In this document: positions 6,138-64,000 of the stretch, one piece after another
How positions within the stretch are numbered: position 1 is the stretch's first letter
How the letters are laid out: every line of letters starts with the position of its first letter
NCBI GenBank assembly: GCA_944390105.1
Contig: CALXOV010000060.1
Coordinates: 1-64,000, forward strand
DNA length: 64,000 nucleotides
Origin: an uncultured Succinivibrionaceae bacterium
GTDB lineage: Bacteria; Pseudomonadota; Gammaproteobacteria; Enterobacterales; Succinivibrionaceae
Direction of reading: 5' to 3'
Made by a program: the position numbers and the translations under genes
Notes under the pieces: model-generated
Told to the model about the DNA's origin: nothing
Databases searched by the model: none
Seen by the model: only the letters and a program-made list of their open reading frames with translations

Positions 6138-7097
6138 ATGAAAGTAACCGTGTTAGGCGCCGCAGGTGGCATTGGTCAGCCTTTATCTCTGCTGCTCAAG
6201 AACAATCTGCCGGCTGGCTCTAAGTTAAGCCTGTTCGACGTTGCCCCGTTCACTCCGGGCGTGGCTAAGGACTTAAGCCATGTGCCGACTGATGTGTGTG
6301 TTGACGGCTACACCGGCGATGATCTGCCCAAGGCTCTGGACGGTGCTGATGTAGTAGTGATCCCGGCCGGCGTCGCCAGAAAGCCGGGCATGACCCGCGA
6401 TGACCTGTTCAACATCAATGCCGGCATCGTGGCTAACTTAGTCAAGAACTGCGCTAAGGTATGCCCGAAGGCCTGCATCTGCATCATCACCAACCCGGTG
6501 AACTCCACCGTTCCGCTTGCCGCTGAAGTGTTAAAGGCCGAAGGCGTCTACGATGCTCACCGTCTGTTTGGCGTGACCGTCCTTGATGTGCTGCGTTCTG
6601 AGACCTTCTTAGGTGAAGAGTTAGGCCTGTCTAAGGCTGCGATGTATGTTCCGGTTATCGGCGGCCACAGCGGCAACACCATTCTGCCGCTGCTCTCGCA
6701 GGTGGTCGGTGCTGAGAAGATCTCCGCTGAGCGCGTTGATGAGCTGACCAAGCGCATTCAGAACGCTGGTACTGAGGTGGTTGAGGCAAAGGCTGGTGCC
6801 GGCTCTGCTACCCTGTCCATGGCTTGCGCCGGTGCGCGCTTTGCTTTAAAGGTGGTGCGCGGCCTGTTAGGTGAGCCGGGTGTTTCCGAGTACGGCTATA
6901 CCGAGGGCGGCTCAGGCTACACTCAGTTCTTTGCGCAGCGTTTAGTCTTCGGCAAGGGCGGCTGGGAGAAGACCTGCGAGATCGGCTGCCTGTCTGACTA
7001 CGAGCAGAAGTGCTTAGATGAGTTAAAGCCGGTGCTTGAAGGCAACATCAAGAAGGGTGTTGATTTCGCTCAGAAGTGGCTGCAGGAGAACAAGTAA
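6138..7097 (+). CDS. mdh: Malate dehydrogenase (NAD-dependent)
   Basis: Interconverts malate and oxaloacetate. In a succinate-forming fermenter it runs reductively to supply fumarase and fumarate reductase. The 319-residue product aligns with E. coli Mdh throughout: Rossmann motif GAAGGIGQ at the N-terminus, substrate-binding region [19 protein letters not shown] contact ITNPVNST, and catalytic His in [14 protein letters not shown]. The start is the ATG at 6138 (MKVTVLG), preceded by GAGGAG; an in-frame ATG at 6093 lacks a ribosome site. Codon use is strongly biased, suggesting high expression. Confidence 0.97.
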
Positions 7098-7145
7098 TTT
7101 AGCTTGTGCTCGTTGCCTGCCGTGTGACGGCATGGCACCATAAAT

Positions 7146-7188
7146 TCAGCCGGGAGTGCTTTGCAGTGCTTCCGGCTGATGCATTTTT
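7146..7188 (+). terminator. Terminator after mdh
   Basis: TCAGCCGG and CCGGCTGA form the outer stem, with internal repeats of AGTGCTT, followed by TGCATTTTT. Confidence 0.65.
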
Positions 7189-7342
7189 AGACTATAGCTT
7201 AGCCCTTAAGTTTTTCCTAAGTCCTGCCGATAAATAAGCTGCAGGTACCTAAAATTAGGTAGCACTGTACCCGATGCCGTTGCCTTTGCCTTTACGGCAT
7301 AAGCTTTAGTTGGTAGGTTTTCTTTTGGTCGATGAGGTGCTT

Positions 7343-8065
7343 ATGCTGCGCGCACGCATTTTAGCTGCCACGCTGCTTTTAATCTGCAGCTGCGTTAGTA
7401 CGCAGGCGGCTGCGCCGTCGCGCTATGACATGGTCACGGATGCGCGTGCTAGGGCCGCTACGCAGGCGCTGGAGCGCAATTTTGCTGATTATCATAATGA
7501 AACCGCGACGATATCGACCTATAACGCGATGCAGCTCAATGCGCTGATTGAGGAAAATCAGCATTTGAAAGTAATTGGCGAGCGCGATCAATGTCAATTT
7601 ACTCCCGATATTGAAGCGCGAGCGCGCAAGTTGCATATTCCGCCTTTTGAGTATGCGTGGGCGGATATGCTGATTCACGGTGTGTGTGTAAAACAGGACG
7701 TGAATGTCGGGCTTGATTATCTAAAAAGCGCAATGGATCATGCCTACGCTCCGGCTTTAATGCGCATGTCGCGTTTTTATGAAACCGGCTTTATCGTGCG
7801 GCAGAACCGGGAGCTGGCCATGGCCTACATGAAGACCGCCGCGCAGTTGGGCTCTTCCTTAGCACGCCTGAACTGGGCCGATATGCTGGTGCGCGGCTAT
7901 GGTGGCCCGGCGCAGTATGAGCAGGCTTACGGCTGGCTGTATGCCACGCATTTTACCGATCACTATCTGCAGGAAAAGAGCAATTATCTGCAGCGTAAGC
8001 TGGAAGAACGTATGCCGCCCAACATCATTGCACGGGCGCGTAGCATGTCGCTTGCCTTCAATTAA
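7343..8065 (+). CDS. motX: Sodium-type flagellar motor protein MotX (Sel1-repeat periplasmic protein)
   Basis: MotX forms, with MotY, the periplasmic T-ring that recruits PomA/PomB stators to Na+-driven polar flagella. The 240-residue product has a signal peptide (MLRARILAATLLLICSC...), a linker, then Sel1-like repeats: FEYAWADMLIHGVCVKQDVNVGLDYL, YAPALMRMSRFYETG and LNWADMLVRGYGGPAQYEQAYGWLY, ending with LEERMPPNIIARA, which resembles the end of Vibrio MotX. The two mature cysteines (DQCQF and GVCV) match the disulfide pair of MotX. The start is the ATG at 7343 after GAGGTG. A generic Sel1 protein is the alternative, but the collinear similarity favours MotX. Confidence 0.85.
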   Translation: MLRARILAATLLLICSCVSTQAAAPSRYDMVTDARARAATQALERNFADYHNETATISTYNAMQLNALIEENQHLKVIGERDQCQFTPDIEARARKLHIPPFEYAWADMLIHGVCVKQDVNVGLDYLKSAMDHAYAPALMRMSRFYETGFIVRQNRELAMAYMKTAAQLGSSLARLNWADMLVRGYGGPAQYEQAYGWLYATHFTDHYLQEKSNYLQRKLEERMPPNIIARARSMSLAFN

Positions 8066-8080
8066 GCCCACACCTTAAGT

Positions 8081-8086
8081 TATAAT
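8081..8086 (+). promoter_or_regulatory. Probable -10 box for ffh
   Basis: A perfect TATAAT lies 36 bases before the ffh ATG. The best upstream partner with an 18-bp spacer is TTCAAT, a weak -35. Confidence 0.5.
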
Positions 8087-8121
8087 CCACAGTTAAATGC
8101 CAAATTGACTGTGGATATGCC

Positions 8122-9513
8122 ATGTTTGAAAACCTTACCGCGCGTCTTAACCGCACCCTGAAGAACATCAGCGGCCAGGGACGCATTACTGAAGAGAATA
8201 TTAAAGATACGCTGCGCGAGGTGCGTACCGCCTTGCTTGAGGCCGATGTGGCGTTGCCGGTGGTTAAAACTTTTACCGCCAGAGTAAAAGAGCGCGCTTT
8301 AGGTCAGCAGGTAAGCTTAAGTCTCACCCCGGGGCAGGAATTCATCAAGATTGTCTACGATGAATTAGTTGCCGCCATGGGCGGGGATAATGCGGCAATC
8401 AACTTGGCCTGTCAACCGCCGGCGGTCATTCTGTTGGCCGGTCTGCAGGGTGCTGGTAAAACCACTTCCGCCGGCAAATTAGCGCTGTTTTTAAAAGAGC
8501 GCTTAAAGAAAAAAGTGCTAATGGTATCTGCTGATACCTACCGTCCAGCCGCTATTGAGCAGCTGGCCTTGCTTGGCAAGGAGACGGAAACGGAAGTGTT
8601 TCCGTCCGATGTCAGTCAGACGCCGCGGGATATTGCCGCCGCGGCGCTGGATCATGCCAAACGCTATGCTTTTGATGTGCTGATTGTCGATACGGCAGGT
8701 CGTTTGGCGGTAGATGAGGATATGATGCGCGAGGTGCAGGAACTGCACCGCATCTTAAATCCTATCGAAACCTATTTCGTCGTGGATGCGATGACCGGTC
8801 AAGATGCGGCCAATACCGCCAAAGCTTTTGGTGAGGCGCTGCCGCTTACAGGCGTCATCCTAACTAAGGCCGACGGCGATGCGCGCGGCGGTGCTGCGCT
8901 TTCCGTGCGCGAGGTTACCGGTAAGCCGATTAAGTTTATTGGTCTTGGCGAAAAAATAAAGCCCCTAGAGCCCTTCTACCCTGAGCGCATTGCCTCGCGC
9001 ATCTTGGATATGGGCGACCTCTTGTCCTTAATTGAGACTCTGCAGCAGGGGGCGGATGCAGAAAAAGCTGCTGATCTGGCCGATAAGATTAAAAAGGGCG
9101 GCTTTGATCTGGAGGACTTCAAGCAGCAGCTGCAGGAAATGCGCAAGATGGGCGGTGCGGCTAAGCTGATGTCTATGCTTCCGGGTGCAGGGGCGATGGC
9201 CGAGCAGCTTAAAGACAAGGTCAATGATAAGCAGATGGCGCATTTGGAGGCTATCATCAATTCGATGACGCCCAAGGAGCGTGCGCATCCTGCCATCATC
9301 AAAGGCTCGCGTAAAAAGCGCATTGCTGCCGGCGCGGGAGTGCAGGTCTACGAGGTCAATCAGCTGCTCAAGCAGTTTGAAACTATGCAGCACATGATGA
9401 AGAAGATGAGCAAGGGCGGCGTGCGCAAGATGGCCGGTGCGATGCGCGGCATGATGGGCAGTCTGGGCGGTATGGGCGGCTTAGGGGCTTTAGGCGGGAT
9501 GCGCCGCCGTTAA
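8122..9513 (+). CDS. ffh: Signal recognition particle protein Ffh
   Basis: The SRP54 GTPase, which binds 4.5S RNA and targets ribosomes making membrane proteins to FtsY. The 463-residue protein has the N domain (about 1-90), G domain with P-loop GLQGAGKTTS, VDTAGRL and TKADGDARGG, and a Met-rich M domain (about 300-435) that binds signal peptides and RNA. The tail is unusually Gly/Met-rich (GAMRGMMGSLGGMGG...), common for Ffh. The ATG at 8122 is the natural start. It precedes the ribosomal-protein operon, as in many proteobacteria, although a broken element lies between them. Confidence 0.97.
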   Translation: MFENLTARLNRTLKNISGQGRITEENIKDTLREVRTALLEADVALPVVKTFTARVKERALGQQVSLSLTPGQEFIKIVYDELVAAMGGDNAAINLACQPPAVILLAGLQGAGKTTSAGKLALFLKERLKKKVLMVSADTYRPAAIEQLALLGKETETEVFPSDVSQTPRDIAAAALDHAKRYAFDVLIVDTAGRLAVDEDMMREVQELHRILNPIETYFVVDAMTGQDAANTAKAFGEALPLTGVILTKADGDARGGAALSVREVTGKPIKFIGLGEKIKPLEPFYPERIASRILDMGDLLSLIETLQQGADAEKAADLADKIKKGGFDLEDFKQQLQEMRKMGGAAKLMSMLPGAGAMAEQLKDKVNDKQMAHLEAIINSMTPKERAHPAIIKGSRKKRIAAGAGVQVYEVNQLLKQFETMQHMMKKMSKGGVRKMAGAMRGMMGSLGGMGGLGALGGMRRR

Positions 9514-9534
9514 CGGAAGTTAAGCTAAGGCTTA

Positions 9535-9557
9535 ATGCCGGGGCACGTCCCCGGCAT
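9535..9557 (+). terminator. Perfect hairpin after ffh
   Basis: A 9-bp perfect stem, ATGCCGGGG / CCCCGGCAT, with loop CACGT, 21 bases after ffh. No U-tract follows. Confidence 0.5.
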
Positions 9558-9648
9558 CGCCGTATAGCGCAAGTGCTGCCTTTTCCCGCAGACATATTGC
9601 CCTAGCTGCAGGTTGGGTCATCGGTGAAAAACAGTGTGCCTCACCGCA

Positions 9649-10300
9649 TTAAGCCTCGGGCTTTAAGCTTGTCTGCAGCTTTTGCACCTCATCCTCACTG
9701 ACATGGGCTAAGGCGGCGATTTTGGCAATAGCCATGCCATCTTTCAGCATGTTAATAATTATTTCGGCCTTACCTTCGGATTTTCCTATTTCAATGCCTT
9801 TAGCAGTACCAATTTCAATGCCTAATTCTTTGGCATTATTGAAAGAGGCCTTGGCATCTTTGATTTCTTTTTCTTTAATTAGATATTGCAAAAGCTCGGC
9901 AGAGTTAGCAAATGCATCTAACATGGTTTCATAGTCCTCAAGCTCAGAGTCGTCTTTAGCCCATTTCTCAATCAGTGTATCATCAGCTTTACTCAGCAGA
10001 ATGAACCATTTGTATAATTTTTTACGTTTAATTTGGCCTGATGCATAGGCATTACGAAAGCGCGGCAATTCTAGGTTATATATGTCAAAGGCATTCGGCA
10101 TCCTCTTGTTCGTATGCTTATTAGATACAGTAAAGCTGCTAAGCCACTCATCATCACCACCGTCATGCTGTTCTATGTAATCCAAAAGATTAATCATGAT
10201 GATGTGAGGTATTTTGTTGTAATCTTCACCCTTGCCTAATGAGCTCACCATGCTTAGTGCTGCATAATATAAGCTGCGTGGCAGCATCTCAGTAGGTTTT
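9649..10300 (-). pseudogene. Remnant of a Rpn/PD-(D/E)XK-family transposase-like nuclease, N-terminal part missing
   Basis: The reading frame (212 residues from the ATG at 10287) matches the C-terminal two thirds of PDDEXK_2 (Rpn-type recombination-promoting nuclease) proteins: RSLYYAALSM...LGKGEDYNKIPHIIMINLLD, then a repetitive EIGTAKGIEIGKSEGKAE segment and the terminal helix-turn-helix-like tail IAKIAALAHVSEDEVQKLQ. Homologous sequence (KADKPTEMLPRS) continues upstream of the ATG to an in-frame stop near 10315, and the N-terminal nuclease core, normally another 80-100 residues, is not present. It is AT-richer than its neighbours and sits antisense between ffh and rpsP. I read it as a decayed acquired gene. 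Confidence 0.75.
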
Positions 10301-10465
10301 ATCAGCCTTAAATTACGGTTGGCTTTGTAAAAAATAATAATTTTTCATACTAAACTTAAAGTCTATCCATCGAGTTAGTGGTATTTGTAATATCTGTCAC
10401 TACGTGAACTTGTGAGTTGCGGCGACGGATTTGCATGCAAAGCTTTTCTTTTGCAAATTTTCTTG

Positions 10466-10471
10466 TATAAT
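10466..10471 (+). promoter_or_regulatory. -10 box of the rpsP operon
   Basis: A perfect TATAAT, 71 bases before the rpsP ATG, preceded by TTG. The -35 region (around 10443-10448) is weak. The leader of about 65 bases is long enough to hold a translational control element, though I see no clear structure. Confidence 0.6.
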
Positions 10472-10542
10472 CGTCCAACTGTATTTCATCACGGACAGTT
10501 CCTTGGGGGATCTGTTCATTAAATTTTATAGGTAAATACGAA

Positions 10543-10905
10543 ATGGTAGTCATTCGTTTACGTCGCTTAGGCGCTAAGAAGCGTCCTTTCTATCACGTAG
10601 TGGTAGCGGATTCCCGTTTTGCTGCTACCGGCCGTTTTATTGAGCAGTTAGGTTTCTTCAACCCGATTGCCCGCGGTAACGAAGAGCGTCTGCGTCTTAA
10701 TGCTGAGCGTGTACAGTACTGGCTGTCGGTAGGTGCGCAGCCTTCTGATCGCGTACAGTGCTTAATTAAAGAAAATGAGATGGGGCCTGAGGCCGCCGCT
10801 AAGCTGCGTGAGGAAAAGCGCGCTGCTAAGGCTGCCGCTAAGGCTGAGGCCAAGGCCGCCGCTGCTGCAGCTGCCGCTGAAGGCGCTGAGGCAGCTTCTG
10901 CCTAA
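10543..10905 (+). CDS. rpsP: 30S ribosomal protein S16
   Basis: A small-subunit assembly protein. Residues 1-80 are canonical ([25 protein letters not shown]...GFFNP...[12 protein letters not shown]). The product is 120 residues, about 40 longer than E. coli S16, because of a Lys/Ala/Glu-rich tail ([15 protein letters not shown]), a low-complexity extension also seen in other proteobacteria. It is the first gene of rpsP-rimM-trmD-rplS. Confidence 0.97.
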
Positions 10906-56807: not shown

Positions 56808-58949
56808 TCAGCAATCAGTCAGTGGGGCAGGCGGTGCATCGCACAAGGTGATGAAATCGTGCAGCGGGAGAGGTTTACTAAAATAAAAGCCCTGCAGATA
56901 ATCAAAGCCTAGATCTTTTAGCATTTGCACTTGTTCGCGGCGCTCGACCCCCTCAGCTACCGCCTTAATGCCGCGCTGATGCACGAGTGTTAAAAAGCTT
57001 TTGACGGTGGTATAAGCGTTATTGCCCACCGTCAGCGCGTCGATGATTTTCTTGTCAAACTTGATGGTGGTCATCGCCAGATTAGCAAAGGTCAACAGAT
57101 TGGCCGAGCCTACGCCATAATCATCCACGGCTACTTTAAAGCCCTTGTCAGTCAGTGCGTGCGTGACATCAACTAAGGTCTGATGCTCGCGTTCCTCAAT
57201 TGATTCCGTGACCTCAATATAGACCAAGCCGGGGTCAATGCAGGTTTGCTTAACAATTTCCTCCAGTTTTTTCACAAAGTCAGGCGCAGTTACGGTAAAG
57301 CGCGAGAAATTAGTGGCCAGCGGCACAATGTTTAAACCTTGTGTAAGCCGGGATTTAATCAGTTCACAGGTTTTTTTGAACATATAAAAATCAATCTCAC
57401 CGGTCATATTCATTGCTTCAAGCAAAGGAATAAAACGCACCGGTGAAATGAAAGTGTTGTGGTAGTTGAGGCGTACTAAAGCCTCACCCTTGGCCAAATG
57501 TCCCTGCGTATCAAAAATTGGCTGAATATAGGCCGTAAAAGCGCCATGTTGTAATAAGGTCTTGATGGTATGTGGCTGCGACAGCCGCTGCAGGATCTGA
57601 TCGGAGCTGGGACGATAGCGCGGGCGTAGCGGATGCGTGTGATAAAAATGCTGCTTTTGCACCAGCATCTGGGTGGAAGCATTAGTGATAAGCTGTTGGT
57701 AGTCGTTGGCATTGCCTAAGGCGCCGCCGACCGAAGCGCTAAAGCCTAAACCGCCGGCAAAGGTGGAGCGGATAGTAAAGCGCGCTTCATCGAACATGCG
57801 CGCGGAGATATTGGAAAAAGTTACCGCAAATTCATCATCGCCAAGGCAATAGCATTGCTCTAAGCCGTACAGCTGCGTCAGTACGGAGGCGGTTTTCTTT
57901 AAGATGTCATCGCCCTGCGCGTGTCCGGCGTCATCGTTAATTGCTTTCAGACCGTTGATGTCAACAATAATGATGCCTAAGTTGGCACGCCGTTCGCAGC
58001 TTTGTTCGAGATCCTTCATGAAGCAGGCGCGGTTATACAGACCGGTGCGGGCATCGTGGTAGAGTATGTGTTCTAAGGAAGTCTGATGCTTTTGCCGGTA
58101 CAAGCTGCCGGCGAGCAGGGCCGCGATATTGTGCAGTTTTTCGCGATGTTTGGCCAAGGCCAGCGCATCGGGATTATCAATGATAAGCAGTCCTTGGCGA
58201 CGCCCTTCAAAGAATAAAGGGTGGCAGTAAAAGGAGGTAATGCCATTTTCCCTGTAGAAAGCAGCTGAGTTGGGAAAACCGGCAGCCGCTTGCTGCGGAT
58301 CTTGAACTAAGATATCACGCCGCCCCTTAAAGCGCTTTTCCCAGGTACGCACAAAATCCATGTTTTGTCTAAGCGCAAAATTAACTATTTCGACAGTACC
58401 CTTGGCAGTTTGCTGCGCACAGGAGGTAGTTTGCGTATCTTCTTCAGTGTAGCTGTAGACTCCGATGCGTTTGCCGTGCATCAGCTTAAGCAGCTGGGCT
58501 AACACGGTGTTTAAGATGGTGGTAAAGCGGATATGGCGGCAATTTAACAGGTTGATGAGATTGCGGTAAATTTTGTTGATATCGCGCTCATCACGCCGCG
58601 CTTCATGCAGATCGATAAAATCGGAGATGTCTGAGGCAATCTCAATGCGTGCTAAGCGGCCGTTAAACTCAATCAGCGAATCGCTGACCTTGTAGACGCG
58701 GTTTAGCAGGCGGTTGTGGGTGGTCCAAGTATAAAATTTACTTGGGCAGAGTTTGGCATTGGTGCAGAACTCACAGGGCCGGTCGAAGCCCATGATGACT
58801 TCATAGCATTTGCGCCCGATGACATTGGAACGGTGCATGCGGAAGGCCTTGAGCATAGCGTTGTTGACATAAAGAAGCTCGTAGGTATCAATATCTGCAA
58901 CGTAGACCAGTTCATTGATAGCTTCTAGGATGCTCTTGTGTAAAGGCAT
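56808..58949 (-). CDS. PAS-GAF-GGDEF-EAL c-di-GMP phosphodiesterase
   Basis: A 713-residue signalling protein. Domains: PAS (about 8-105) with four cysteines (Cys48, 59, 62, 68, from KCYEVIMGFDRPCEFCTNAKLC) that could bind a metal or sense redox; GAF-like (130-290); GGDEF (about 300-440) degenerate at the active site (CLGDDEFAV instead of GGDEF); EAL (about 465-705) with catalytic residues intact: GEALVRL, TNFSR, YIEVTES, AVDDYGVG, IKFDKK, AEGVE and YLQGFYFSKP. It therefore probably degrades c-di-GMP. Cytosolic; the ATG at 58949 has AAGGAG upstream. c-di-GMP lowering would favour flagellar motility. Confidence 0.92.
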   Translation of the reverse strand: MPLHKSILEAINELVYVADIDTYELLYVNNAMLKAFRMHRSNVIGRKCYEVIMGFDRPCEFCTNAKLCPSKFYTWTTHNRLLNRVYKVSDSLIEFNGRLARIEIASDISDFIDLHEARRDERDINKIYRNLINLLNCRHIRFTTILNTVLAQLLKLMHGKRIGVYSYTEEDTQTTSCAQQTAKGTVEIVNFALRQNMDFVRTWEKRFKGRRDILVQDPQQAAAGFPNSAAFYRENGITSFYCHPLFFEGRRQGLLIIDNPDALALAKHREKLHNIAALLAGSLYRQKHQTSLEHILYHDARTGLYNRACFMKDLEQSCERRANLGIIIVDINGLKAINDDAGHAQGDDILKKTASVLTQLYGLEQCYCLGDDEFAVTFSNISARMFDEARFTIRSTFAGGLGFSASVGGALGNANDYQQLITNASTQMLVQKQHFYHTHPLRPRYRPSSDQILQRLSQPHTIKTLLQHGAFTAYIQPIFDTQGHLAKGEALVRLNYHNTFISPVRFIPLLEAMNMTGEIDFYMFKKTCELIKSRLTQGLNIVPLATNFSRFTVTAPDFVKKLEEIVKQTCIDPGLVYIEVTESIEEREHQTLVDVTHALTDKGFKVAVDDYGVGSANLLTFANLAMTTIKFDKKIIDALTVGNNAYTTVKSFLTLVHQRGIKAVAEGVERREQVQMLKDLGFDYLQGFYFSKPLPLHDFITLCDAPPAPLTDC

Positions 58950-59236
58950 GCTCACTCCTTGCCGACAAGAGCGCAGAGCGCGTCCGTATCGAGCATATTA
59001 TTATGATTTATAGTCTTAACAGTATAAGGTTAAATTTCGGCAGAAGTCGCTGAGTTGCCGCAAAATTTTTGATGATGAGAGCAAAAAATTTGCGGCTGTC
59101 GCTGATCACGCCCCCTAAGCGCAGCCCTTTAGTAGTAAGCGCGCGGAGAAGAGCGGTACTTAATGATGAGCTTTGCGGAAAATGGAGGCGACATGGTAGG
59201 CTTAATCTCGGCGCATACACTTAAGGGGGGAAGCTT

Positions 59237-60148
59237 ATGCACTCACCGCTATTATCGCGGCAATTGGAGAGTTTTTTAGCCTGTGCCCGGCATGGCAGCT
59301 TTGCACAAGCTGCGGCGGCGCAGTATATTTCTGTCAGTGCATTGATTGAGCAGATTGAGCGCCTAGAGTTCAAGCTTAAGCTAAAGCTGTTTGTACGCTC
59401 GCCACGTGGACTTACGCTGACCCCAGCGGGCCGGCAGCTACAGACGGCAGCAGTGGAGCTGACCGCGCTTGCCGATAAGACCCTCCGCGAGCTGATGGCA
59501 GCCCAGCTACGGGAAAAAACCGTGCACTTTGGTTCCTCGCCGATAGTCAGCGGTACGCTGGGTTTGGAGCTTTTTAATGCAGTGCACTATCAAATTCCTG
59601 AGGTTTTTGCTGCAATTGTGCCGTTTAATAATGTAGAGCGTGAGGCGCGGGACATTTTGACGCATTTGGGCGACAGCATTGACATCGTACCGGGACTGTA
59701 TGATGAACGATTTTTAGCCGCATGCGGCTGCACGGCACTGCCAGTGCGCATGACGCAGTTTGGATTGTCAGTCCCGCAGGATCTGCCGTTGGCGCAACGG
59801 CCTTATCTTAGCTTGGCAGACCTTAAAGATTTTAAAATCGCTATACAGCCAAGCGGTACATTAGAAGTGACCGATAATGTGCGCGCGGCTTTAAGCCAAG
59901 TCGGACTTGGCGCTAATATCGTCGAAACAGGATTTATGAGCATCGATGCCTTCAATCGGGCCTACCACGATAAGACTTTAGTGCTCAACATTCGTGAGTG
60001 GGCGGGAGCTCATCCTTTTTTCCGTTTTGTTCCATTAAAACCGGTGTTTACCGGCACTTTTGGGCTGATTCATGCAGTAAAACCGCGCCCCTGTGTGCAA
60101 CGCTTTTTGCAGGCAGTTGCCGCCTACCTTAAAAACTCCAAGCTTTAA
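59237..60148 (+). CDS. LysR-family transcriptional regulator
   Basis: A 303-residue LTTR with the N-terminal winged HTH (LLSRQLESFLACARHGSFAQAAAAQYISVSALIEQIERLEFKLKLKLFVRSPRGLTLTPAGRQL) and a substrate-binding domain of the periplasmic-binding fold (about 90-300). The ATG at 59237 follows GGGGGGAAG. It precedes a secreted alpha/beta hydrolase on the same strand, which is the likely target; a 10-bp inverted repeat lies just at the lysR stop. Confidence 0.92.
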   Translation: MHSPLLSRQLESFLACARHGSFAQAAAAQYISVSALIEQIERLEFKLKLKLFVRSPRGLTLTPAGRQLQTAAVELTALADKTLRELMAAQLREKTVHFGSSPIVSGTLGLELFNAVHYQIPEVFAAIVPFNNVEREARDILTHLGDSIDIVPGLYDERFLAACGCTALPVRMTQFGLSVPQDLPLAQRPYLSLADLKDFKIAIQPSGTLEVTDNVRAALSQVGLGANIVETGFMSIDAFNRAYHDKTLVLNIREWAGAHPFFRFVPLKPVFTGTFGLIHAVKPRPCVQRFLQAVAAYLKNSKL

Positions 60149-60189
60149 GGTTTAAGGGTAAAACCTTAAACGTATACCTAATTTTAGGC
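60144..60189 (+). promoter_or_regulatory. Inverted repeats upstream of the hydrolase
   Basis: TTTAAGGTTT (60144-60153) and AAACCTTAAA (60161-60170) are perfect 10-bp inverted repeats with a 7-base spacer, followed by the palindrome CCTAATTTTAGG (60178-60189). They overlap the end of lysR and precede the hydrolase promoter, so they may be LysR operators; the first could also form a transcript hairpin. Confidence 0.5.
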
Positions 60190-60248
60190 TTCTATAAGCG
60201 CTTTTGTGACCGTATAGTGTAGGCATTTCTTATATGGAGATTTTACAG

Positions 60249-61451
60249 ATGAACCATAAATTGCCTACTTTTATTAGCGCGCTGAGCGCGGCTTTAATTA
60301 GCCTGCAGGCTGCAGCATATGATCCGGCCTTAGCGGTCAAACCTGCAGCTGATGAACCTTTAGTGTTGCGCACTTTAGGCAGCTTTGCCTTCGGCGGCAG
60401 CGTAGACTATCGTGAGGACGGTACCACCTTTCATGGCGATCACGGCTATGCTCAGTACATTATTCCGGCGCATTCCCGGCATCTGCCGATCGTGATGTGG
60501 CATGGTATCGGCCAGTCTGGCAAAACCTATGAAACTACCCCCGACGGGCGTGAGGGGTTTCAGACGCTGCTGCCGCGGGCGGATTGGTCGGTGTATGTCG
60601 TCGATCAGCCGCGCCGCGGTCGTGCCGGCTATACCAATGCAGTTAAAGCAGGGCCCAGCATCCCCACGACGGCCAGCGAAGCTGGCGTGTGGGAGGCTTT
60701 TCGCAATGGTCCGTGGACGGCAGGTGAGGATGCAGCGCTTTTTGCCAATTCTGCCTTCCCTTTAAGCCCAAGTGCGGTAGAGCAGTTTTTCCGCCAGCAG
60801 ACCCCGGATACCGGTGAAGAGCCGCAGAGCGCGTCCTATCGCTGCTTTATGGGAGAGACCGGTACAGCTTTATTTGAGTCAATCGGCGATGGCATTTTAG
60901 TTACTCACTCCAATTCCGGACAATACGGTTGGGAAATTGCGATGCATTCAGATAAAGTCAAAGCTGTTATTGCTTTTGAGCCGGGGGCCTGCGCCTTCCC
61001 TGCAGGCAATCCGCCGGAGGATTTCGTCATTGCCAATGAACTGGTGCAGAACCGTTTAGCTCCGCGCCTGGTGCCGAATGAAAAATGGCAGCGGCTGCTC
61101 AATATTCCGATCTTAATTGTCTTTGGCGACAATATTGCTGACACTCCCAATGCTCAGTCTTTTAATGCCGAGGTGTGGCGGGTGGCGCTGCAGCGGGCCA
61201 AGCAGTTTGCCGCCCAAATTAATCAAGCTGGCGGCGACTGTCAGGTCATTGAGCTGCCCGCGCTTGGCTTGCACGGCAATACACACGCGATGTTTGCCGA
61301 TAAGAACAATCGTGAAGTGTTAAAGGTAGTGGAGGATTTTCTTGCCTACAAGGGCCTTGATGGCTATGCAGCGCCGCATGTCGGTCCCATGATGCCGCAG
61401 GTGGATGACTATACACTGCCCTTATCACCGATCCGTGCGACGGGGTGGTAA
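60249..61451 (+). CDS. Secreted alpha/beta-fold hydrolase
   Basis: A 400-residue exported hydrolase. The signal peptide MNHKLPTFISALSAALISLQ is followed by a mature domain with the oxyanion-hole strand LPIVMWHGIGQSGKTYE, the nucleophile elbow LVTHSNSGQYGWEIA (a variant of GxSxG), and a late His in LGLHGNTHAMF. The substrate is unknown; related enzymes are annotated as esterases. ATG 60249 follows GGAGATT (an upstream ATG at 60234 is unlikely). It is probably regulated by the adjacent LysR protein. Confidence 0.85.
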   Translation: MNHKLPTFISALSAALISLQAAAYDPALAVKPAADEPLVLRTLGSFAFGGSVDYREDGTTFHGDHGYAQYIIPAHSRHLPIVMWHGIGQSGKTYETTPDGREGFQTLLPRADWSVYVVDQPRRGRAGYTNAVKAGPSIPTTASEAGVWEAFRNGPWTAGEDAALFANSAFPLSPSAVEQFFRQQTPDTGEEPQSASYRCFMGETGTALFESIGDGILVTHSNSGQYGWEIAMHSDKVKAVIAFEPGACAFPAGNPPEDFVIANELVQNRLAPRLVPNEKWQRLLNIPILIVFGDNIADTPNAQSFNAEVWRVALQRAKQFAAQINQAGGDCQVIELPALGLHGNTHAMFADKNNREVLKVVEDFLAYKGLDGYAAPHVGPMMPQVDDYTLPLSPIRATGW

Positions 61452-61486: not shown

Positions 61487-62326
61487 TTAATTGGTCAGAG
61501 CGGTGCGCACCAAAACGGACTGTCCGACGGTAAGCTCGGCGCGTGGGGCAGGCGCACTGCTAGGCCACAGCGTTATTACAGTAGAGCCGTATTTAAACAG
61601 TCCGATTTCATCACCTTGCTTAAAGCTGGGCGCATTATCGTTAAAGTAGGTTACTTCAATATTGCTGCGTCGCACCACGGTGCCGCCCCAGACGGTGGCA
61701 ATGCTGCCCACTAATGCCGCACCGACTAAGATGACGGCAAAGTCGCCCACTGAGCCTTTAAAAAAGCACACTAAGCGCTCGTTTTTGGTGTAGAGATCTT
61801 CAACATATGCAATATTGCGCCGTCCTACCGGAAAGAGGCGCCCGGGGATATGCACGGTCTTAACTAAGATGCCGTCAGCGGGGATGTGCACGCGATGATA
61901 GTTAGCCGGGGACAGGTAGACCGTGGCATACCAGCCGTGGGCAAAAGGTGTGGCATCGTCCTTCAGACCGCCTAGCAGCGAAAGCAGTGAATAATCAATG
62001 CCCTTGGCCTGAATTAAACGGCCAGAGGTCACTGGACCTGCCATGCCTAAGGTACCGTCTGCCGGCATGGTTAAAGCACCGCTGCCCAAAGGGCGGGCGC
62101 CGTCTTTAAGTTTACGTGTAAAAAACTCATTGAAGGTCGCGTAATGCGTCGGATCAGGATCGGCGCATTCCGTTAAGTCAATTTTAAACTGCTTAATAAA
62201 GCTTTTGATTAAAAACTGGGTCAGAGCGCCTAATTTGGCGTCAGTGAGCTTAGCTGACAGCGAGGTTAAGGTGGTAAGCGGGGTCAGGCGCTGCATGGCG
62301 CTAAGCAGGATTCCGGCAAAGGTCAT
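61487..62326 (-). CDS. psd: Phosphatidylserine decarboxylase
   Basis: Makes phosphatidylethanolamine in the inner membrane using a pyruvoyl group formed by self-cleavage. The 279-residue proenzyme has YATFNEFFTRKLKDGARPL, MPADGTLG (catalytic Asp), YLSPANYHRVHIPADG (His) and the cleavage site FKYGSTVI. E. coli has LGST here; the Leu is Tyr, while the cleaved Gly-Ser is kept. Transcribed alone on the minus strand. Confidence 0.95.
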   Translation of the reverse strand: MTFAGILLSAMQRLTPLTTLTSLSAKLTDAKLGALTQFLIKSFIKQFKIDLTECADPDPTHYATFNEFFTRKLKDGARPLGSGALTMPADGTLGMAGPVTSGRLIQAKGIDYSLLSLLGGLKDDATPFAHGWYATVYLSPANYHRVHIPADGILVKTVHIPGRLFPVGRRNIAYVEDLYTKNERLVCFFKGSVGDFAVILVGAALVGSIATVWGGTVVRRSNIEVTYFNDNAPSFKQGDEIGLFKYGSTVITLWPSSAPAPRAELTVGQSVLVRTALTN

Positions 62327-62564
62327 GGTATAACTCGATTATTTACAGGTGGTAGATCATAGAACTAAGTTAGAAAAACAGGTTAATACTAACATGTTAA
62401 TGTCAGGTTGATGTAGTTCAGAAGTGAGGATCCGCAGTGAAACATTGTAAATGATGCGAGGTGTTGAAAAATAAGTATAAAATTATTTTAATTTATAATG
62501 AATCAAGCATAAGGATTGAGCTATACTAAATTGTAGCGATATAGTGTAATTAAGATAATAAAAT
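62327..62564. other. AT-rich divergent promoter region at an island boundary
   Basis: Composition shifts abruptly to A/T-rich after psd. TATAGTG near 62540 is a plausible -10 for the ATPase gene. No repeat, integrase or tRNA marks the boundary. Confidence 0.5.
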
Positions 62565-64000
62565 ATGCCAGAAAAGATCCTTGAGCCAAGAGTAGACGCG
62601 TTAATTAGTTCGTTAAGAAGTGTTGGCTACTCTTTGAATACTGCAGTAGCGGATATTATTGATAATTCGATTAGTGCTCATGCCAAGAAGATCTATCTCT
62701 ATGTTCAGCAGGAAGCAAATAAACTGCCGTTTTTTGTGTGCATTGATGATGGGGATGGTATGACTGCGGATCAATTGTACGAAGCAATGCGTTTGGGTTC
62801 ACATTCCCCAGATGACCAGCGCTCAGAAACAGACCTCGGGCGTTTTGGCTTAGGACTTAAAACAGCATCATTCGCCATGTGTAAAAAATTTACGTTGCTT
62901 TCTGCGATTAATGGCAATGTCTGCGCGGCATCATGGGATATTGACGAAGTAAAGCGACAGCAAGCATGGAAATTGCATATCCCAGAAAAAGAAGAATATA
63001 TACATTTACCACTCTTTGAAAAAATGCCAGAAACAGGAACTATGCTGGTATGGCATCAGATAGATAGGCTGGCAAGTCAGCAGACAAGCAATTTTAATAA
63101 AGAGCTTATTAAACTTAAAAACCATTTAGAACTTACATTCCATCGTTATTTAGCGGGAGATGCAACGGTAAAAATTGACATTTACTTAAATGGCCGTTCA
63201 CTCAAGGCTTTTGATCCTTTTAGAGTCGATAGCTACGCTACACAATCATTGGACATTGAAAAAATTCAAATCGGTGAAGGGGAAGAGGACTGTATTACGA
63301 TAACTCCATATATTTTACCGAGCAGATGGAAGTGTAGTAGTGAAGATGATTATAAAAAATACGCCGGAGATGGAGGCTACTTGGCAAATCAAGGTATTTA
63401 TGTTTATCGCAACAAACGTTTAATTAGTCATGGCTCGTGGTTCAGATTGGCACAAATCGATAATGCATATCAGTTAGCTCGGGTAAAGATAGATATTCCG
63501 AATTTCGTTGATAATGAATGGCAGGTTGACTTTAAAAAATCAACGGTGAAACTTCCGGAGAAGGTAAAAAATCGCTTAAAGAAAATTATCGGCGAGATTA
63601 CAAATAGGGCAGCAATGACTTATCGATCTTGTGGCAGTATGGTAAGTAGTAATAATCATACAAATAAAGAAGATAATAAAAATTTTTGGAAATTATATAT
63701 ATCGGATAAAGAAAAATTTTTTAGGATTAATAGGGAAAATTACTTAATTCGGCTAATAGGTAATAATTTATCAGAACAAGACAGTCTAATCTTTGAACAC
63801 TTACTTAGACTCATTGAGGAGGATTTAAAACAAAATCAATCGCTACTGTTAAGTAATTTATCCAATAATAATTTATCAGATATAGAGAATGAAGAATCTA
63901 AGTCACGAGAGGAACTAATAGAAGAAGGGGTAGCACTGTATCAAGATATGCTCGAGATTATAAATAGTGCGCAGGCTACGCTCGATTATATAATGGAACT
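62565..64000 (+). CDS. MORC-like GHKL ATPase, 3' truncated by the window
   Basis: An open frame of at least 478 codons runs to the window edge. The N-terminal Bergerat ATPase fold is explicit: N-box AVADIIDNSIS (Asp30, Asn34), G1 CIDDGDGM (61-66), G2 lid DLGRFGLGLKTASF (90-103). An S5-like second domain follows (QGIYVYRNKRLISHGSWFRL ... NEWQVDFKKSTVKLP). This matches the bacterial HSP90-like/MORC ATPases often encoded in restriction-modification-like and defence operons. The gene is AT-rich with AGA/ATA/AAT codons, unlike the GC-rich housekeeping genes around it, suggesting horizontal acquisition. Start is the ATG at 62565. Confidence 0.85.
   Translation, partial: MPEKILEPRVDALISSLRSVGYSLNTAVADIIDNSISAHAKKIYLYVQQEANKLPFFVCIDDGDGMTADQLYEAMRLGSHSPDDQRSETDLGRFGLGLKTASFAMCKKFTLLSAINGNVCAASWDIDEVKRQQAWKLHIPEKEEYIHLPLFEKMPETGTMLVWHQIDRLASQQTSNFNKELIKLKNHLELTFHRYLAGDATVKIDIYLNGRSLKAFDPFRVDSYATQSLDIEKIQIGEGEEDCITITPYILPSRWKCSSEDDYKKYAGDGGYLANQGIYVYRNKRLISHGSWFRLAQIDNAYQLARVKIDIPNFVDNEWQVDFKKSTVKLPEKVKNRLKKIIGEITNRAAMTYRSCGSMVSSNNHTNKEDNKNFWKLYISDKEKFFRINRENYLIRLIGNNLSEQDSLIFEHLLRLIEEDLKQNQSLLLSNLSNNNLSDIENEESKSREELIEEGVALYQDMLEIINSAQATLDYIME

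Follow-up and report, generated by a model that had tools for sequence, protein, structure and literature searches.

We analyzed a window of 64,000 nucleotides, the first part of a contig of 104,453 bases whose numbering continues that of the window. Its right edge cuts into an AT-rich island of 11.4 kb (62.3-73.8 kb) with seven genes between psd and nrdB, and these genes have 32-43% GC against about 52% in the surroundings. The left boundary gene, psd (61487-62326, minus strand), encodes phosphatidylserine decarboxylase and lies outside the island; the AT-rich intergenic stretch at 62327-62564, between psd and a divergently oriented MORC-family ATPase gene, forms the left edge of the island and presumably holds the promoter of the operon that the MORC gene opens. 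This gene is followed on the plus strand by genes for a Z1 helicase, a DUF4420 nuclease and an AIPR protein. Convergent to the operon run the genes of an EcoRII endonuclease and of two C5-methylases, here called M1 and M2, and beyond M2 lie nrdB (73807-74847, minus strand), which marks the right boundary, and then nrdA. All genes after the MORC gene are located beyond the window. Two known kinds of restriction machinery share the island: one is the four-gene system of the MORC ATPase, the other a classic EcoRII pair. A search for signatures of integration revealed neither a tRNA nor an integrase nor repeats at the boundaries.

An earlier note on this DNA had suggested that the ATPase gene, sharply richer in AT than its surroundings, opens a defense or restriction island. 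Both points are borne out by the full contig: the MORC gene has 36.7% GC, a value to which none of 366 segments of 1.5 kb elsewhere on the contig falls (minimum 44.7%, median 52.3%), and extension to the right reveals restriction-modification (R-M) and defense-type genes up to nrdB. The gene had also been said to begin directly after psd, which is indeed the next gene leftward, but stands on the opposite strand, divergent and 238 bp away. As for the expected neighbors, methylases, a Z1 protein and nucleases are present in the island, but the Z1 protein is an SF2 helicase/ATPase rather than a nuclease, and there is no Vsr.

The first gene of the operon (62565-64058, plus strand; within the window to 64000) encodes a MzaB-like protein of 497 aa, with a reading frame that is open to the window edge and a stop at 64058 in the contig, 58 bases past the window. 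The protein matches Pfam HATPase_c_3 (E=1.6e-33), and residues of the N-box (D30..D33-N34), G1 (D61-G63-M66) and lid (G92-R93-F94-G95..K99) are invariant in an alignment of 17 homologues. When a profile of this alignment is compared with the PDB, the best matches are human MORC2, MORC4 and MORC3, with SMCHD1 and MutL ranking behind. The acidic residue of the N-box, D30, is Asp in all 17 aligned bacterial homologues; MutL has Glu at this position. The S5 motif specific to MORC proteins, G-h-X-h-h-p-X-X-R-h-l (Iyer 2008, PMC2292703), is satisfied by GIYVYRNKRLI. Carrying both the GHKL motifs and the S5 motif, the product is a true MORC-family GHKL ATPase, in agreement with the identification made earlier from the window.

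The four genes of the operon touch or overlap one another, as expected of a single transcription unit. The Z1 SF2 helicase gene (64058-66808, plus strand; 916 aa) shares one base with the MORC gene, the gene for the DUF4420 PD-(D/E)XK nuclease (66777-67802, plus strand; 341 aa) overlaps the Z1 gene by 32 nt, and the AIPR gene (67809-69935, plus strand; 708 aa) follows after a gap of 6 nt. The motifs of the Z1 protein are intact (Walker A GEVQSGKT, DDEAD, TATP and DALLQMGRWFG), and E154, D184 and E193-x-K195 of DUF4420 are invariant in 22 homologues. AIPR matches the PADLOC AbiU model (9e-30), and its NNG and IVNGGQTT motifs are strongly conserved. No solved homologue of AIPR was found; its AlphaFold model has a mean pLDDT of 85, and the best PDB matches, MspJI and ParB-N, have E >0.1 and TM about 0.1.

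The EcoRII frame (70063-71295, minus strand) aligns with EcoRII (1na6) over both domains, the KTTCKDRWRQ motif included, and this EcoRII-N/EcoRII-C endonuclease adjoins M1 (71311-72420, minus strand), a methylase of the M.EcoRII class. In domains and neighboring methylase the pair is like the EcoRII R-M system, and the single difference noted is an N-terminal extension of about 45 residues in M1. Four other EcoRII pairs occur in the family (L079, L114, L115 and L116), each with one M1-class methylase, 61-71% identical to M1, and no M2. EcoRII as a regular partner of the MORC core was rejected because the two co-occur too rarely: EcoRII-C is found in 22 of 398 phylum genomes, only one of which besides our own also has a MORC match, on another contig. 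Within the genus, one congener has MORC and EcoRII 5 kb apart. Congener G002 (locus L079, contig C76) carries a second cluster of MORC, Z1 and DUF4420, divergent in sequence and accompanied by a gene for an HNH nuclease, 5-6 kb from an EcoRII and M1-class pair; the contig breaks off within DUF4420. Ratios of observed to expected sites on the contig were 0.68 for CCWGG, 0.59 for GGWCC, 0.62 for GANTC and 1.02 for GCSGC; site avoidance was dropped as a sign of methylase specificity, since other palindromes are as low as CCWGG.

The presence/absence difference after psd that the earlier note had anticipated is seen in congener G001, where no other gene separates nrdA, nrdB and psd and the gap from nrdB to psd measures about 230 bp. 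The source genome therefore has all 11.4 kb of the island in addition, a difference at the level of species rather than strains, as the congeners are different species. Nor is the ATPase conserved at this site in all relatives: three of the four congeners have no MORC match, and the fourth has a 38%-identical MORC at another site. The frdA-psd side of the window is variable as well, given that frdA directly adjoins psd in congener G004; here, the stretch between them (56808-61451) holds a GGDEF/EAL-type gene, a LysR-type regulator and a secreted hydrolase-like gene that has no Pfam match.

More widely, MORC matches occur in 6 of 57 family genomes and in about 8% of the 398 phylum genomes, and a scan of named relatives with a single MORC sequence gave one weak match only. 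We read the neighborhoods of 28 other MORC genes, which together with our own make 29 loci. The full core of MORC, Z1, DUF4420 and AIPR is present in 23 of these, our own included, and a C5-methylase lies within 5 kb in 21 of the 23, the two exceptions being near contig ends; no C5-methylase was found in 35 control loci (198 kb). An annotated copy with the order dcm-MORC-Z1-PD-(D/E)XK-AIPR resides on the conjugative plasmid pASPHE302. MORC genes are also carried by 44 viral or prophage-like IMG/VR contigs (L119-L162), many of which have a methylase as well as the complete core, and the system thus travels on mobile elements. At L080 (genome G029, 6512-10647) a MORC core stands in one row with an M2-type methylase and a protein that contains a FokI cleavage domain, and MORC systems may thus have a FokI-type nuclease as an additional partner. 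Gene content, linkage and absence from relatives together support the reading of our locus as a putative defense island.

Which of the two systems the second methylase serves is less obvious from its position. M2 (72536-73609, minus strand) shares no more than about 28% identity with M1 and stands in tandem with M1 and EcoRII on the same strand (gaps of 115 and 15 nt), away from the MORC operon, so that it could be transcribed with EcoRII. This arrangement is what speaks for M2 being part of the EcoRII operon, either in a two-methylase EcoRII system or as a stray methylase, with the MORC operon having none of its own. We regard that as unlikely, because the family's EcoRII pairs make do with a single M1-class methylase, because M2-type genes elsewhere are never paired with EcoRII, and because a C5-methylase accompanies almost every MORC core. 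M2-type methylases are found in 5 of the 57 family genomes, our own and four others, in which they are 54-59% identical to M2 and closely alike in their target-recognition regions; outside our island, none in these genomes is beside EcoRII. As in our island, they accompany MORC cores in L077 and L080, and in these two loci they lie directly upstream of the core; in L112 and L113 their neighbors are R-proteins (PLD-B3) and N-proteins (DEAD-Z1) as in CglI and NgoAVII, the L113 R-protein matching solved R.NgoAVII (4rct) at 5e-30. Because M2-type methylases in other family genomes are linked only to MORC cores or to CglI/NgoAVII-type systems, M2 is probably the self-mark of the MORC system. The nearest methylases come from L077 and L080, yet the MORC proteins of these loci are 34% identical to ours, as compared to 43% for L089; methylases therefore appear to move between cores.

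The explanation we favor joins three parts and is, in our estimate, moderately probable: the MORC/Z1/DUF4420/AIPR operon is a restriction-type defense operon that came in with the island inserted between nrdB and psd, M2 is its own self-marking methylase, and EcoRII with M1 is a separate, classic R-M pair co-resident in the island. This division, with M2 assigned to the MORC system and EcoRII and M1 to another, is a modest addition to what was known. Since CglI and NgoAVII methylases recognize GCSGC and that of the related BceSIV system GCWGC (PMC4267653), homology predicts a GCNGC-class site as the target of M2.

Some related loci also carry DNA-reading proteins of the B3 type; VP1/RAV (B3) proteins were already noted in such neighborhoods by Iyer et al. 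(PMC2292703). The MORC operon of L077 encodes a 208-residue protein equivalent to an NgoAVII-type R-protein reduced to its B3 half, with the nuclease half missing; it shares 54% identity with the B3 portion of the R-proteins in L112 and L113 and matches PDB 4rd5 at 1e-15. A stand-alone B3 protein of the EcoRII-N type is present in eight MORC loci that have no Z1 (L086, L101, L144-L147, L149 and L150), which mostly have Vsr too and sometimes AIPR. An M.EcoRII-class methylase occurs in 8 of these 8 loci and in 3 of 45 others, an association that Fisher's test (1.9e-7) overstates, as the eight are mutually related. New here is that the class of the nuclease-less B3 reader matches the class of the methylase at related MORC loci. 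A stand-alone B3 reader of the kind seen in L077 is absent from our own island. Tentatively, MORC restriction systems might combine a common ATP-driven MORC machine with an exchangeable cassette, made up of a C5-methylase writer with or without a matching restriction-derived B3 reader; in our island, the reader would have been lost or replaced, and EcoRII would have moved in. It is conceivable, with similar reserve, that within such cassettes EcoRII-N-type readers go with M.EcoRII-class writers, and readers of the NgoAVII B3 type with M2-class writers.

The way the MORC system works is likely a methylation-sensitive, ATP-driven restriction, a view that combines two precedents. In CglI and NgoAVII, DNA-dependent ATPase activity is proven for the DEAD-Z1 protein, which drives the cutting of sites that lack methylation (PMC4267653): B3 binds the unmethylated site, the Z1 ATPase hydrolyzes ATP, and cleavage by the nuclease follows (PMC4267653, PMC5737866), with translocation by the ATPase a proposal (PMC5737866). 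DNA looping by MORC was proposed by Iyer et al. (PMC2292703). From these we infer an order of events in which M2 would mark a short site in the host's own DNA, predicted to be of the GCNGC class, with 5-methylcytosine, and the complex would assemble on unmarked foreign DNA. The Z1 SF2 motor may then spend ATP on translocation, and a MORC dimer may clamp or loop the DNA, coupling recognition to a cut made, we presume, by DUF4420. AIPR might be an accessory recognition or abortive-infection part.

A stronger role for AIPR would make the four-gene operon mainly an abortive infection system, which senses invading DNA and has AIPR stop or kill the cell rather than simply cutting. The homology of AIPR to AbiU-type proteins and the strong conservation of its two motifs are in keeping with this, but the enzymatic activity of AIPR is only putative, with fold matches at E >0.1, and the intact nuclease and the methylase linkage of the operon are typical of restriction; we therefore hold it to be somewhat unlikely, if a little less so than placing M2 in the EcoRII operon. 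Far less probable still is a DNA-repair module of the MutL/Vsr kind: MORC ATPases are relatives of MutL and Vsr occurs at many homologous loci, but our island has no Vsr, and the system is patchily spread, absent from most relatives, and associated with plasmids and viral contigs as well as with restriction enzymes. For restriction by the MORC system, the sharing of M2-type methylases with the biochemically studied CglI and NgoAVII makes both the target site and the self/non-self rule measurable, which bears on the role, in connection with DNA methylation, of bacterial MORCs as proposed ancestors of eukaryotic chromatin MORCs.

The suggestion that the system may be new is not supported by comparison with known ones. 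With MORC, Z1, DUF4420, AIPR and a C5-methylase at one locus, it has the gene set that the predictions of 2008 and 2022 describe, and it resembles mzaBCDE; annotated copies exist, such as that on pASPHE302. The type 3 MORC operon of Iyer, Abhiman and Aravind (2008, PMC2292703) shares the MORC ATPase, an SF2 helicase with a D-h-h-Q-x-u-R-h-F-G motif (here DALLQMGRWFG), the RE-fold nuclease and C5-methylases, and AIPR was noted in type 3 operons too; our island differs by the added EcoRII R-M pair and by having no Vsr. The 'Type II' of Miller et al. (2022, PMC9523054) shares Z1 (about 925 aa), PD-(D/E)XK, C5-methylase, AIPR and MORC, usually without MzaA, whereas our methylase is on the opposite strand, beyond the EcoRII R-M pair. 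Anti-phage activity is a prediction for both (PMC2292703, PMC9523054).

Miller et al. describe their predicted 'Type II' as reminiscent of mzaABCDE, with about 20% identity (PMC9523054). Compared with mzaABCDE (Gao et al. 2020), as represented in NCBIfam, PADLOC and PMC9523054, our operon has homologues of MzaB, C, D and E in the same order, but not the sigma factor MzaA. There is no sigma gene in the island, and the MzaA profile, which also fires in 10 of 14 control genomes, matches only three unlinked sigma-factor loci. Filing the system as MZA was rejected on account of this absence, of scores well below the NCBIfam equivalog cut-offs for MzaB-E (265/850, 443/1500, 70/420 and 304/1050 bits), and of its position outside the sigma-bearing clade: in a quick tree, in which our own branch is long, a single supported clade unites the six sampled MORC loci that carry an ankyrin-sigma MzaA and leaves ours out. 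CglI and NgoAVII (PMC4267653, PMC5737866) likewise combine a Z1-bearing SF2 ATPase with a C5-methylase, and M2-type methylases occur with both kinds of system, but those systems cut with a PLD-B3 nuclease and lack MORC, DUF4420 and AIPR. Conversely, the PLD-B3 R-protein and the short DEAD-Z1 N-protein are absent from our island, and an R-protein query found nothing in the source genome. Our core is a sigma-less cousin of mzaBCDE, and the locus is an example of known systems whose core is widespread, predicted since 2008 and mechanistically unsolved.
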